This document shows, one piece after another, positions 1,086 to 6,955 of a stretch of DNA of 10,744 nt (the first letter of the stretch is position 1; each line of letters starts with the position of its first letter). Where the stretch lies: positions 1 to 10,744 of the forward strand of contig JAAFIT010000045.1 of NCBI GenBank assembly GCA_013298745.1, read 5' to 3'. Made by a program: the position numbers and the translations under genes. The DNA is from Sphingomonadales bacterium. GTDB taxonomy: Bacteria > Pseudomonadota > Alphaproteobacteria > Sphingomonadales > Sphingomonadaceae. The notes under the pieces were generated by a model. The model was not told the origin of the DNA and did not search any database. It saw only the letters and a program-made list of their open reading frames with translations.

Positions 1086-1808
1086 TCACGCGGTGATGCG
1101 GAACCCGGCAAGATAGTCATAATCGGCTCGGCAGGCGTCGGCGACGACTTGCGCTTCGGCGTCGAGCACGACCGGCTTGGTTTCGGGCGCCCCGAAACCG
1201 GTGGAGGCTTCGACCGATTCATACCAATGCGAAGCCCAGATGCCGTCAGTATCGCGGCGGCCCGGCGCCCAGCGCAGCATCGTCGGATCGAAAGGGATGC
1301 CGAGTGCCGCACACAAAGCCGCGAGCATCGGTGCCGGGTCAGCAAGAATATCGGACGAATCGATCACCGGCGGTGCCTTGCCGAGCCGATCGGCCTCACG
1401 ATCAAAATACTGCCGCTGGCGAGCAACGCCGAGGTGATCGGGCCGCACCGCGACGCGCTTGACGGCGTAACTGGCGACGACCCGCGCCGGATCGCGGATC
1501 AGAAACGCATGAGTGTGCGCCGCCAGATCTGCAATGCCGACCGGGCCTTTCATATGATGCGCCATATGCTTCTGATACCAGATAGGCCGCGCTACCGGGC
1601 CGGACATGGCGCGCGCGACGCTGTGCCAGTCGCAATCCATCGACGCGATGACGGCCTCCTTCATCGGCTGATCATCACCGGTGGCCTTCAGATAGGCGCC
1701 GTAAAAGGGTTCATCGCTGACCACCGTGTCGGCACGCGCGCCAAAGCTGCGCATCATCGCGGTCGAGAGATTGCGCGGGCCAGACCACATGGCAATGCGA
1801 TGGGTCAA
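1086..1808 (-). CDS. Sulfotransferase-like P-loop protein coupled to an aminotransferase
   Basis: 240 residues with a sulfotransferase fold. Both PAPS-contact motifs are visible: the 5'-phosphosulfate loop at the N-terminus (WSGPRNLSTAMMRSF, residues 8-22) and the 3'-phosphate motif FLIRDPARVVASY (102-114). Sulfotransferases move a sulfuryl group from PAPS to an alcohol or amine, but members of this branch are mostly uncharacterised. The HMAHHM segment (81-86) lies between the motifs. There is no signal peptide, so the protein is cytoplasmic. The start is TTG, read as TTGA so that it overlaps the TGA stop of the upstream aminotransferase; this suggests translational coupling. An internal ATG at residue 7 would cut into the P-loop strand and is less likely. 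From memory, plant branched-chain-aminotransferase-like proteins begin with a closely similar domain fused to the aminotransferase, which supports a shared pathway. The sulfotransferase fold is well supported; the activity is not. Confidence 0.85.
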   Translation of the reverse strand: MTHRIAMWSGPRNLSTAMMRSFGARADTVVSDEPFYGAYLKATGDDQPMKEAVIASMDCDWHSVARAMSGPVARPIWYQKHMAHHMKGPVGIADLAAHTHAFLIRDPARVVASYAVKRVAVRPDHLGVARQRQYFDREADRLGKAPPVIDSSDILADPAPMLAALCAALGIPFDPTMLRWAPGRRDTDGIWASHWYESVEASTGFGAPETKPVVLDAEAQVVADACRADYDYLAGFRITA

Positions 1809-2725
1809 GGCCGCCCCCGTGCCGCGACATCGGCGGCAATCAGCGCGCGATAGAGCCGTTGCAACCGCTCGACCATCGGGCCGCGGCCGTCGGTGAGCTT
1901 ACGGCCATCAATGCTGCGCACCGGCACGACGCCGGCAAAGGTGCCGGTGACGAACGCCTCGTCGGCACCATAGACATCGGTCAGCGAGAAATTGCGTTCG
2001 AACACCGGAATGCCATTGGCCTTGCAGAGCGCGACGACATTGCCGCGGGTGATGCCGCCGAGGCAGTAATCGCCGGTCGAGGTCCACACTTCGCCTTTTC
2101 GGACGATGAAGAAATGCGTCGAATTGCACGTCGCGACAAAGCCGTGCGGATCGAGCATGAGCGCCTCGTCGGCGCCGGCCTCGGTCGCCTGGATGCACGC
2201 GGTGATGCAGTTGAGCTTCGAATGGCTGTTGAGTTTAGGATCCTGGACATCAGGGAAGCCGCGCCGGACATGGACGGTGAACAGCGTGATGCCGCGCTCG
2301 ATCGTGGCTGGCAGCGGGTCCTTATGTTCGGCGATAATGACGATGGTGGCGGGCGACACGACGACCCGTGGGTCCTGATAGGGTGTCGAGCGCAGGCCGC
2401 GGGTGACCATCAGCCGAATATGGCAATGGTCCATGGTGTTGGCGTCGATGGTCGCATAAAGCCGCGCTTCCAGCTCGGCCTTCGACACGCCGATATCCAT
2501 CGCGATTGCCCTGGCACCCTCCCACAGCCGTTCCAGATGCTGGCCCAGGAACGCGCATCGCCCGGCGTGGACGCGGATGCCTTCCCAGACGCCGTCGCCG
2601 AGCATAAAGCCCGAATCGAAAACGCTGACCATCGCCTCGGCGCGCGGCTTGAGGTCGCCATTGACGTTGATCAGGATGGTGTTGTTGCGCGGATCGGGTG
2701 TGAAATCATGCGTACCTTGCGCCAT
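1805..2725 (-). CDS. Class-IV PLP aminotransferase-like protein (BCAT/D-AAT fold)
   Basis: 306 residues, fold-type IV PLP enzyme. Hallmarks are VSVFDSGFMLGDGVWEGIR (33-51), the GGITRGNV phosphate-binding turn (223-230) and ADEAFVTGTFAG near the C-terminus. The length suits branched-chain or D-amino acid aminotransferases. Two things are unusual. The lysine region reads DPKLNSHSKLNC (162-173), with two candidate PLP lysines (K164, K170) and spacing that fits neither IlvE nor D-AAT exactly. The motif that is usually ETNATNIF reads TCNSTHFF (199-206), so the glutamate that contacts the PLP ring nitrogen appears to be threonine. Substrate and even reaction type are therefore open: amino transfer, lyase or something else. 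AAGGA lies 7 bases before the ATG. The stop overlaps the start of the sulfotransferase-like gene, so the two are co-translated. Family call is secure; an 'IlvE' label would be unsafe. Confidence 0.92.
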   Translation of the reverse strand: MAQGTHDFTPDPRNNTILINVNGDLKPRAEAMVSVFDSGFMLGDGVWEGIRVHAGRCAFLGQHLERLWEGARAIAMDIGVSKAELEARLYATIDANTMDHCHIRLMVTRGLRSTPYQDPRVVVSPATIVIIAEHKDPLPATIERGITLFTVHVRRGFPDVQDPKLNSHSKLNCITACIQATEAGADEALMLDPHGFVATCNSTHFFIVRKGEVWTSTGDYCLGGITRGNVVALCKANGIPVFERNFSLTDVYGADEAFVTGTFAGVVPVRSIDGRKLTDGRGPMVERLQRLYRALIAADVAARGRP

Positions 2726-2751: not shown

Positions 2752-2780
2752 TCTATCGCGCCGTTCGGATAATCTGTCAT
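2752..2780 (-). promoter_or_regulatory. Candidate promoter of the aminotransferase operon
   Basis: The 86 bp between the divergent aminotransferase and LpxR-like genes must serve both. On the minus strand ATGACA (2780-2775) and GATAGA (2757-2752) are 17 bp apart, the only sigma70-like pair I find there. It sits about 26 bp ahead of the aminotransferase start. For the plus-strand gene I see GATAAT (2768-2773) as a possible -10 but no matching -35. Confidence 0.3.
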
Positions 2781-2811
2781 GGCATGGATTAAGCTGCAAA
2801 GGGGAATGCAT

Positions 2812-3786
2812 ATGTACCGATCAATCCTCTTGGCGACACTCGCGATTGGCGGTGCCAGCGCCGGGAGCGCGGCAGCGGCGCCCGAGGACCGGCCGGTGTT
2901 GAGTGCGGGCATCGAGAACGACCTTTTCGGCGTTACCGGCACCGATCGCTATTATACCCACGGCACGCGCTTCGCGTTTCGCCACGGCACCGACAGCGCG
3001 CCGTTCTGGCGGGGTGCCCTCGACTGGGCGCCGTTGTTACCTCGCGGTGCGCGCATGAGCTACGAAACCGGTCTCCTCCAGCTGATCTTCACCCCCAGTT
3101 CGATCCGGGGTCGCGAGGTCCGCCCCGGTGATCGCCCCTATGCCGGCATGCTCGCGGGAACGATCGCGATTGACGGGACGGCGCTCGATGGCCGCCGGAG
3201 CGACCAGATCAGCCTGACCGTTGGTTTGATCGGCCCGGCCAGCCTTGCTGAACAGGCCCAAAAACTGGTTCACAGGGTGCAGCAAGGCATCGAACCACGC
3301 GGTTGGCAAACCCAGCTTGGAACCGAACCAGCGGTGAACCTTGGATGGCGACGACGCTGGGCATATGCAGCACCAGGGATGGCAGTATCCCCGCACATTG
3401 GCGCTGCGCTCGGCAACGTCCACACCCATGCTGCTGCAGGTGTCACGCTGGCGATCGGGGCCGGGCTCGCAAACCAGCGTCCTGCCGAACTGGAGCCCTT
3501 CAGCCCCGGCCTGGCCGCGTTGCCGGCAAGCCCGCGCCCCGTCCTCAACCTGCTGGCGGGTGTGGAAGGCCGAGTCGTGGCAAGGAACCTGTTTCTTGCA
3601 GGGAACAGCTTCACCGACGGGCGGGGCGTCGACACGAAACCGTTGGTCGGTGATGCATTCGCCGGCGCATCGCTACGCTGGCGCGGACTGCGGCTCTCGT
3701 TCCGCCATGTCTGGCGCAGTAAGGAGTTTGTCGGACAGCGCGGTATCCAGCGCTTTGGTGGTTTTACACTTGATCTGCGTGTCTAA
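2812..3786 (+). CDS. LpxR-family outer-membrane lipid A deacylase-like protein (DUF2219)
   Basis: 324 residues. A signal peptide at 1-23 (MYRSILLATLAIGG then Ala-rich, cleavage before PEDRP) is followed by a beta-barrel of the LpxR family. In Salmonella, LpxR removes the 3'-acyloxyacyl group of lipid A in the outer membrane. The family signature GIENDLFG (33-40; the conserved Asn-Asp pair), TDRYYTHG (44-51), RPYAGM (108-113) and a LVHR histidine (H154) followed by RGW (163-165) are all present, matching the catalytic Asn/Asp and His of LpxR as I recall them. I chose the ATG at 2812 because AAAGGGGA ends 6 bases upstream; the ATG at 2806 abuts that sequence, and 2779 would place nine extra residues before the signal peptide. 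The barrel ends in Val, not the usual Phe. The gene is convergent with the DUF1192 gene and shares stop-codon bases with it. If the host lacks lipid A, as many sphingomonads do, the true substrate must be another lipid. Confidence 0.9.
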   Translation: MYRSILLATLAIGGASAGSAAAAPEDRPVLSAGIENDLFGVTGTDRYYTHGTRFAFRHGTDSAPFWRGALDWAPLLPRGARMSYETGLLQLIFTPSSIRGREVRPGDRPYAGMLAGTIAIDGTALDGRRSDQISLTVGLIGPASLAEQAQKLVHRVQQGIEPRGWQTQLGTEPAVNLGWRRRWAYAAPGMAVSPHIGAALGNVHTHAAAGVTLAIGAGLANQRPAELEPFSPGLAALPASPRPVLNLLAGVEGRVVARNLFLAGNSFTDGRGVDTKPLVGDAFAGASLRWRGLRLSFRHVWRSKEFVGQRGIQRFGGFTLDLRV

Positions 3787-5827: not shown

Positions 5828-6955
5828 ATGCTCAACCGGCTTGACGATTATCCCGTTCACCAGACACCCGAACCCTTGGCAGTGCTCGCGACCAGCGATC
5901 GCAATGCCTATGATCGCACCTGGTTCAACGGCTATGCCCCTGACGGCAGTTACTATTTCGGCGTGGGCATGGCGGTCTATCCGCACCGCGGCATCCTCGA
6001 TTGCGCCTTTTCCACAGTACGCCCCGGCGAGCGCCAGCATTGCTTCTATGGCTCGCGCCGCGCGCCCATCGAGCGCACCGAAATGGCGGTCGGCCCGTTC
6101 CGCATTGAAGTCATCGAGCCGATGCGGCGCACCCGCGTCATCCTTGATGACAATGAAACCGGCATCGCCTGTGACCTGACCTTTTCGGCGCGCACCGCCG
6201 CCATCGAGGAGGCCCGACAGACACTGTGGCAGAACGGCCGCCGCATCATGGACGCCACCCGTTTCGACCAGTTCGGGCGCTGGAGCGGCACTGTCCGCAC
6301 CCCTGATGGCGAGTTCAAGGTGGATGATGCCGTCTGCCGCGGCACCAAGGATCGCAGCTGGGGCGTGCGCCGCGTCGGCGAGCCCGAAACCGGCGGCGCC
6401 CCATCAATGCCCGGCGGCATCATGTTCCTCTGGGCGCCTCTGGTGTGGGATGATCACATCACCCATGCGATCTTCTTTGACGGCGCACAGGGCCAGGCGC
6501 TGGTGCGTGAAGGCATTGTCGCGCCGCTCTATGGGAGCGAAGACGCGATTCCCGGCACCGAGGATGGGCGTGATGAGCGCATGGCAACGGCGCGGCACCG
6601 CGTGCGCTATGTGCCCGGTACCCGCCTCGCCGCCGACGCCGAGATCGATCTCGTCGGCCATGATGAGAGCGTGCGCACCATCGCGCTCGACCCTATCCTG
6701 CGCTTCCAGATGAAGGGGCTGGGCTATGGCCATCCGGTGTGGGGGCAAGGCATGTGGAAGGGCGAACTCGCCATCGGCGGCGAGAGCTTTGATCCGCGCC
6801 AGTTGGATCCGCTGGCGCCCGAGAACCTCCACGTCCAGCAGGTGGTGCGCGCCAGCGACGGGACGCGAACGGGCGTCGGCGTGTTGGAACAGGTGGTGTT
6901 CGGGCCTTATGCGCCAGCGGGGTTCACGTCGTTTCTCGATGGCGCCAAGGGCTGA
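5828..6955 (+). CDS. CrtC/AttH-like (DUF7064/7065-type) protein of unknown function
   Basis: 375 residues, no signal peptide or membrane segment. The protein is rich in beta-strand-like stretches. The central segment CRGTKDRSWGVRRVG (170-184) matches the G-x-RDRSWGVR signature I associate with the lipocalin-like double beta-barrel of hydroxyneurosporene synthase (CrtC), AttH and the DUF7064/7065 proteins. CrtC hydrates a carotenoid double bond, and related proteins bind or act on hydrophobic molecules. Many actinobacterial and sphingomonad relatives lie near lipid or steroid genes, which agrees with the SDR and quinone reductase upstream. The ATG has a good ribosome binding site (AAAGGG, 7 bases upstream), and the gene starts 12 bp after the SDR stop. 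I am confident that it is a gene and fairly confident of the fold class; the function is unknown. Confidence 0.85.
   Translation: MLNRLDDYPVHQTPEPLAVLATSDRNAYDRTWFNGYAPDGSYYFGVGMAVYPHRGILDCAFSTVRPGERQHCFYGSRRAPIERTEMAVGPFRIEVIEPMRRTRVILDDNETGIACDLTFSARTAAIEEARQTLWQNGRRIMDATRFDQFGRWSGTVRTPDGEFKVDDAVCRGTKDRSWGVRRVGEPETGGAPSMPGGIMFLWAPLVWDDHITHAIFFDGAQGQALVREGIVAPLYGSEDAIPGTEDGRDERMATARHRVRYVPGTRLAADAEIDLVGHDESVRTIALDPILRFQMKGLGYGHPVWGQGMWKGELAIGGESFDPRQLDPLAPENLHVQQVVRASDGTRTGVGVLEQVVFGPYAPAGFTSFLDGAKG

Follow-up and report, generated by a model that had tools for sequence, protein, structure and literature searches.

A sulfotransferase and a class-IV aminotransferase-fold protein lacking the PLP lysine are co-inherited in bacteria and occur as a fusion in plants

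Class-IV aminotransferases depend on PLP bound to a lysine, and sulfotransferases on PAPS. In a contig of a Sphingomonadales bacterium (10,744 nucleotides, hereafter the window) a gene of each kind overlaps the other, and the question is what the two products do together. Both genes lie on the minus strand. The aminotransferase-like gene (AT) occupies 1805..2725, starts with ATG and encodes a 306 aa protein of the class-IV aminotransferase fold (PF01063) in which the PLP lysine is absent. The sulfotransferase gene (ST; Sulfotransfer_5, PF19798) occupies 1086..1808, starts with TTG and encodes 240 aa. A preliminary description of this DNA stated that the AT stop and the ST start share the bases TTGA, and both reading frames confirm it. 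The minus strand junction reads ...C TTGA CCC..., which places the TTG start (1808-1806) across the TGA stop (1807-1805) in a 4-nt overlap (1805..1808, minus strand) that couples AT and ST. An acyl-CoA dehydrogenase-like frame, which scored under the cut-off for all NCBIfam models listed, is located 3' of the pair on the same strand. The divergent gene upstream of the pair (2779-3786, plus strand) encodes an LpxR outer membrane protein (PF09982). Elsewhere in the window an Rv3169 family protein (5828-6952, plus strand; NF053593, 368 bits) adjoins an SDR and a PIG3-type quinone reductase.

The preliminary description let its case depend on adjacency reaching beyond the genus, and a survey of gene neighbourhoods found it in the Proteobacteria, in the order and in the Fidelibacterota. 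Both genes were present at 124/127 loci examined. The 4-nt overlap was observed in 68/124 loci (ATGA 37, GTGA 27, TTGA 4), and in 28/124 the ST model start was within 20 nt of the AT stop. The genes were further apart in 24 loci and reversed in two (L243 and L286), and two were unscored because AT was cut or broken. The reversed order, ST then AT, is found in L093, which comes from the same genome as L243, and in L286. A scan with one genome per species yielded 141 ST relatives, 80 of which were kept, and AT was at the same locus in 77/80. Two of the three kept STs without AT are at a contig edge and one is on a mis-binned contig. The gap between AT and ST exceeded 400 nt in five of the 80 kept loci.

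Co-inheritance was examined in three genome sets. Among 200 Proteobacteria genomes, counting the window's own, 11 carry ST, and exactly these 11 carry this AT type; the two genes adjoin in 9 of them and are separated in 2, G083 and G183. For the order, 147 genomes yielded 40 with both genes and one (G280) with AT alone; by coordinates, 40/40 pairs are adjacent on a single strand, with AT ahead of ST. Of 199 genomes of the Fidelibacterota, the phylum of L077, 55 have both, two have AT only (G486 and G514) and one has ST fragments only (G448). Fisher tests of co-occurrence, which ignore kinship, gave 3e-18 for the Proteobacteria, 2e-35 for the order and 2e-45 for the Fidelibacterota. The ATs of G083 and G183 group in the tree with plasmid copies that have no ST, not with ST-linked Rhodobacter-type ATs, and both genomes are therefore weak examples of co-inheritance. 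The coupling of AT and ST is not chance. It is also specific to this ST type: no such AT was found in any of 15 stretches, most of them 3-4 kb, fetched from around other types of PF19798 protein. Across 110 loci a broadly conserved third gene was sought and rejected: AT and ST alone are widespread. Of the remaining gene clusters, the three largest (29, 28 and 28 members) occur in sphingomonads alone, and none of those shared between lineages exceeds 10 genes. The pair thus looks self-contained, as it is in the plant fusion described below.

Several candidates were set aside. Three bacterial in-frame fusions, AT then ST (P0003, P0084 and P0096), contain frame-shifted stretches and so look like sequencing errors. 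An apparent second pair in the window's own genome, formed by an ST fragment on contig C123 and an AT on contig C182, was rejected as firm evidence. The C123 fragment and the window ST share 92 percent identity, and the DNA that follows also matches closely (92.5 percent over 200 residues in one frame). Since the DNA is near-identical and the bin is contaminated (5.34 percent), this copy may come from a near-identical strain. The C182 AT is of a different type (51 percent) and groups with that of L006. In L006, from Glacieibacterium, an ST that closely resembles that of the window (74 percent) adjoins the other type of AT (51 percent), which suggests a partner swap. An ST on a contig filed under Pseudanabaena biceps (L041:6001-10850; JAATWA010000012.1) shares about 91 percent identity with the window ST over residues 77-240. 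It was rejected as cyanobacterial, for the DNA is sphingomonad-like and several frames match C123 at up to 98 percent; the contig is likely mis-binned. In very small genomes (L228-L232, L281 and L282) an M1-peptidase-like gene lies near the pair in 7 loci and a Wzi-like gene in 6.

The window ST matches the PF19798 profile with 210.7 bits (cut-off 23.2), and two papers count this family among the sulfotransferases (PMC12506393; PMC11625862). Its 5'-phosphosulfate-type P-loop, WSGPRNLST (residues 8-16; 1761..1787, minus strand), is well conserved in 144 distinct rows (P11 in 140, R12 in 141, S15 in 139 and T16 in 137, with 3 rows gapped). Residues R105...S113 (1470..1496, minus strand), which we take to be the 3'-phosphate-binding stretch, are likewise conserved, R105 and S113 each being found in 143/144 rows with 1 gap. 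E33 of a DEP motif (1710..1712, minus strand) is E in 140/144 rows (3 gaps and 1 X), the motif is present in plants too, and by analogy this residue is a candidate for the catalytic base. The structure was predicted with a pLDDT of 92.5, and its best fold matches are olefin-synthase, CurM and tyrosylprotein sulfotransferases. A sequence search of the PDB gave weak matches only (CurM, E 0.031). The ST therefore has both motifs of a PAPS sulfotransferase, the 5' P-loop and the 3' R...S, on a sulfotransferase fold. The CurM and olefin-synthase ST domains (4gbm and 4gox) and the tyrosylprotein sulfotransferases are 10-15 percent identical to the window ST over aligned residues and have other acceptors. 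Sulfation by CurM and olefin synthase precedes and serves elimination. A sulfotransferase of a Dolichospermum plasmid cluster is homologous to the window ST (31 percent identity) and sits beside an APS kinase (cysC). That cluster differs in having no such AT in a 16.8-kb stretch; the enzyme looks like one for secondary-metabolite tailoring, presumably resembling the cylindrospermopsin enzyme CyrJ.

AT has the sequence and fold of class IV (PF01063, 141.3 bits). It falls under the cut-off for all NCBIfam models listed, including the BCAT IlvE and DAAT models; the best score was 246.8 against 363 required (NF006185), and ilvE_I gave 197.3 against 245.55. The closest PDB entries by sequence are 7z79 and 9j32 (E 1e-101 or below; 7.7e-102 for 7z79). 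The preliminary description had taken AT for an ordinary class-IV aminotransferase. In the motif D162-P-K-L-N166-S-H-S-K170 (2216..2242, minus strand), N166 (2228-2230) stands in the position of the PLP lysine. This column was aligned in three ways, by profile, by MAFFT and by HMMER against the PDB, and the three agree on N in the bacterial pairs. In the profile alignment it is N in 126/126 distinct bacterial rows, L286 having been fetched afterwards. In the MAFFT alignment it is N in 31/31 pairs, and H in 9/9 plants and in L286; 58/61 ordinary class-IV relatives have K and 3 have a gap. No lysine column is invariant elsewhere in the AT alignment (136 rows). Because AT lacks the lysine that forms the Schiff base with PLP in a working class-IV transaminase, with N or H in its place, it is not an ordinary class-IV aminotransferase, and this part of the preliminary description has to be given up.

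The rest of the site is well kept. The GITR motif (residues 224-227; 2045..2056, minus strand), presumably the phosphate cup of the class-IV fold, is retained. G224, T226 and R227 are kept in 31/31 pair rows and 9/9 plant rows, and together with R66 they make up a phosphate cup of fixed residues. W47, H102, N201 and C221 are fixed across 41 rows (pairs, plants and L286) and are not among the residues commonest in ordinary class-IV relatives. Alignment to known motifs would place W47, H102, N166 (or H), N201 and C221 near the PLP site. With the phosphate cup kept and four new near-invariant residues, the AT site looks rebuilt for another use rather than decayed. The Variovorax paradoxus aminotransferase-like protein in the PDB has the same NSHS motif and lacks the lysine like the window AT. 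Its wild-type entry (7z79) carries LRLNSHSR, and the mutant (9j32) has K at that N and is titled N174K, so its depositors had noticed the missing lysine. It differs from the window AT by falling in a branch with plasmid copies that have no ST. The archaeal BCATs 5mqz and 5cm0 and IlvE share the class-IV fold and phosphate cup with the window AT; they have the PLP lysine, and the archaeal BCATs lie outside the clade of pair and plant ATs.

The preliminary description placed the same two domains in one Arabidopsis protein with a similar WSxPRxLST motif, and both points are confirmed. PF19798 and PF01063 are found in a single chain in 120/120 plant matches listed (the best 120 of 5802 at E<=0.001), including A. 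thaliana P0245, whose P-loop reads WSAPRSLST as against WSGPRNLST in the window ST. At the lysine site SKIHHNNLLNN is present in 120/120 listed plant proteins, and the corresponding sequence of L286 is LDSKIHHANLLNN. L286, from a genome of the Fidelibacterota set, has two separate but closely packed genes in the plant order, ST then AT, and its AT shares 57 percent identity with the Arabidopsis protein. In a quick tree of 102 rows, the ATs of plants and of bacterial pairs fell into one clade (support 99). In a more careful tree of 56 rows, from which 46 of the 102 had been removed as long-branch or redundant, this clade had 100/98 support and the L286 AT was sister to the plant AT domain, also with 100/98. 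A grouping of plant ATs with archaeal BCATs was rejected by the AU test (p 0.0007, or 0.0004 with L286 added). Plant and bacterial pair ATs have a common ancestry. By raw PDB score the plant AT domain prefers the archaeal BCAT 5mqz (222 bits) to 7z79 (196 bits). In the quick ST tree the plant STs group with those of L286 and L223 (99); beyond these two, their closeness to pair STs versus cyanobacterial STs is not settled. A better match of the plant domains to other families, which was to count against a common module, is thus contradicted for AT by the tree and the AU test, though 5mqz outscores 7z79, and is unsettled for ST beyond L286 and L223.

The plant proteins concerned are the branched-chain-amino-acid aminotransferase-like proteins 1 and 2. 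They have the same two domains as the pair, they lack the lysine and their ATs belong to the one clade (100/98). They differ in being fused, in the order ST then AT, opposite to that of most bacterial pairs, and in having H instead of N. The window has both domains and the common AT ancestry, as two overlapping genes and not as one polypeptide. A structure model of the plant fusion gave no confident domain arrangement or interface (pTM 0.52).

In a plasmid collection, 24 records had a relative of the window AT (50.7-56.4 percent for the 15 listed), and searches of the same collection for ST found only distant STs, on other records. Sixteen plasmid records were opened from the top of two search lists: 14 annotated Proteobacteria, L308 (unannotated) and L314 (a Bacillota ilv cluster). 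L308 and L314 were dropped from the lysine check, as no readable frame was found at the coordinates used. The lysine is absent in 14/14 readable rows and C221 is present in 13/14. An import system is near AT in 14/14 annotated records, which is a raw count. The same holds for the kinds of transporter (amino-acid or branched-chain ABC in 12, TRAP or TAXI in the other 2), for ClC anion channels (5/14) and for genes of the proC or ornithine cyclodeaminase type (5/14). A betC choline-sulfatase gene is found in 2/14 records, overlapping AT by 4 nt in L305 and further on in L307. Single cases are TauE/SafE (L310), SfnB (L303) and an Asp/Glu racemase (L299). In the AT tree 7z79 falls with L301-L303, and the unlinked ATs of G083 and G183 fall with L299, L300 and L304. 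The AT type is broader than its link to ST: ST is almost always near AT, and AT occurs without ST nearby.

PAPS supply was examined in the genomes that carry the pair. A match to APS kinase (E<=0.001) was found in 57/65 pair genomes, and it was strong (E<1e-50) in 41/65. None was found in G032, a pair carrier listed as 100 percent complete, and the window's own, incomplete genome has two APS-kinase fragments. A full-strength APS kinase lies <=10 kb from the pair in 4/54 genomes of the phylum set and in 0/11 Proteobacteria. In 11 further genomes of the 54, all 1.0 Mb or less, a weak match lies <=10 kb from the pair. Two of those 11 were placed in the tree and group tightly, and in L228, the most fully annotated small-genome locus, the weak APS-kinase-like gene sits in a sugar-nucleotide gene cluster. 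PAPS-synthesis genes directly follow the pair in L279 (AT-ST-cysD-cysNC) and in L226 and L280 (AT-ST-sat/cysC), and in L281 cysC is two genes beyond it. These four loci account for the 4/54 genomes; L279-L282 were picked for fetching on account of APS-kinase proximity already seen. We take cysD-cysNC and sat/cysC to represent two unrelated kinds of ATP sulfurylase. Upstream of AT-ST-sat/cysC in L226 (2206-6726) are molybdopterin genes and a TauE/SafE exporter.

The preliminary description argued for one conserved reaction sequence or complex. The pair, the plant fusion, the common ancestry of the ATs and the wide adjacency speak for it. It is to be corrected on two points: the partner is not an ordinary aminotransferase, and the AT type is also found without ST on the same plasmid. 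AT and ST probably carry out a shared chemical step. Our tentative proposal, which we consider quite possible, is that the pair is one functional module in which ST sulfates an amino-acid-like compound and the lysine-less AT processes it. Judging from its motifs and fold, ST would move a sulfo group from PAPS to the hydroxyl of a small amino-acid-like acceptor. AT, having no lysine-PLP Schiff base, would bind the same compound through its phosphate cup and changed site and perform a lysine-independent step; our favoured guess is that the sulfate would be lost as a leaving group. The PAPS-synthesis genes that follow the pair in L279, L226 and L280 favour the proposal; the lack of an APS-kinase match in G032 and the small number of pair genomes with a full-strength one close by weigh against it. 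The ClC channels, proC and ornithine-cyclodeaminase genes and sulfur genes near the ST-free ATs fit a leaving-group reaction, the proC and ornithine-cyclodeaminase relatives being presumably imine reductases. Serine O-sulfate inactivates aminotransferases by trapping, which a class-IV fold without the lysine would escape. Possible precedents are CurM-type sulfation ahead of elimination and ColD, a PLP enzyme of another fold that has histidine replacing lysine. A fuller version would extend this chemistry from bacteria to plants. ST would convert a hydroxyl of an amino compound into an activated sulfate ester, from which the lysine-less AT would remove the sulfate by elimination or replacement. 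Copies without ST would take imported amino acids that come with a leaving group; the anion would then be exported or used, and the imine formed would be reduced. In all these particulars it is unlikely to be right.

It is also conceivable, if rather doubtful, that AT is a non-catalytic subunit, there to hold the acceptor in position for ST (or, as a sensor, to bind PLP/PMP), and that the pair simply makes a sulfate ester. Loss of the catalytic lysine favours such a subunit; ST is almost never without AT (11/11, 40/40 and 55/56), and the two are fused in plants. However, the AT site is newly conserved (W47, H102, N201 and C221) rather than decayed, and 14/14 readable plasmid ATs without ST keep the same changed site without the lysine. 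ATs with no ST on the record adjoin amino-acid transporters, which would make little sense for a positioning subunit unless ST is chromosomal. This explanation nevertheless stays close to the reading in two steps.

Two further explanations do away with a shared step. AT could be an ordinary aminotransferase that uses another lysine and happens to lie beside an unrelated sulfotransferase. Its fold and phosphate cup are intact, and two lysines are frequent: K170 is K in 130/135 rows and K164, at the -2 position, in 100/135. Neither is constant: at K170, 4 rows have R, one has L and the plants have L, 33 rows have R, H or M at the -2 position, and 7z79 has R at both places. With N166 (or H) fixed where K is expected, use of another lysine is improbable. 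Least probable is linkage without biochemical coupling, the two unrelated genes traveling as a hitch-hiking cassette. Distribution of the pair within genera is patchy, as such a cassette would predict, but the same pair is found in two phyla without a third gene that is broadly shared, the 4-nt overlaps and the plant fusion are at odds with mere proximity, and the linkage is seen in both gene orders (ST then AT in L093 and L286).

Two of these features are already visible in public records: Pfam annotation shows the domain pair in plant proteins, and one of the two PDB titles shows the missing lysine. A literature search found nothing published on the pair, on how it is co-inherited or on what it does, and in the papers searched no function was found for plant BCAT-like proteins 1 and 2. 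Arabidopsis and many named flowering plants carry the fusion, often under the name 'branched-chain-amino-acid aminotransferase-like'. Since the protein is without a residue that an aminotransferase needs, this label probably misleads. The function of the bacterial pair is probably the same, and there it is accessible to genetics and biochemistry. Testable clues to a chemistry of the class-IV fold that, to our knowledge, is in no textbook enzyme come from the absence of the lysine, the PAPS genes linked to the pair and the uptake operons without ST. Among the plant entries, six of 922-961 aa (P0248, P0295, P0309, P0319, P0349 and P0354) contain the fusion plus a PF10294 (FAM86-type) methyltransferase. 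They are probably gene-model joins of neighbouring genes, though they occur in several plant families.
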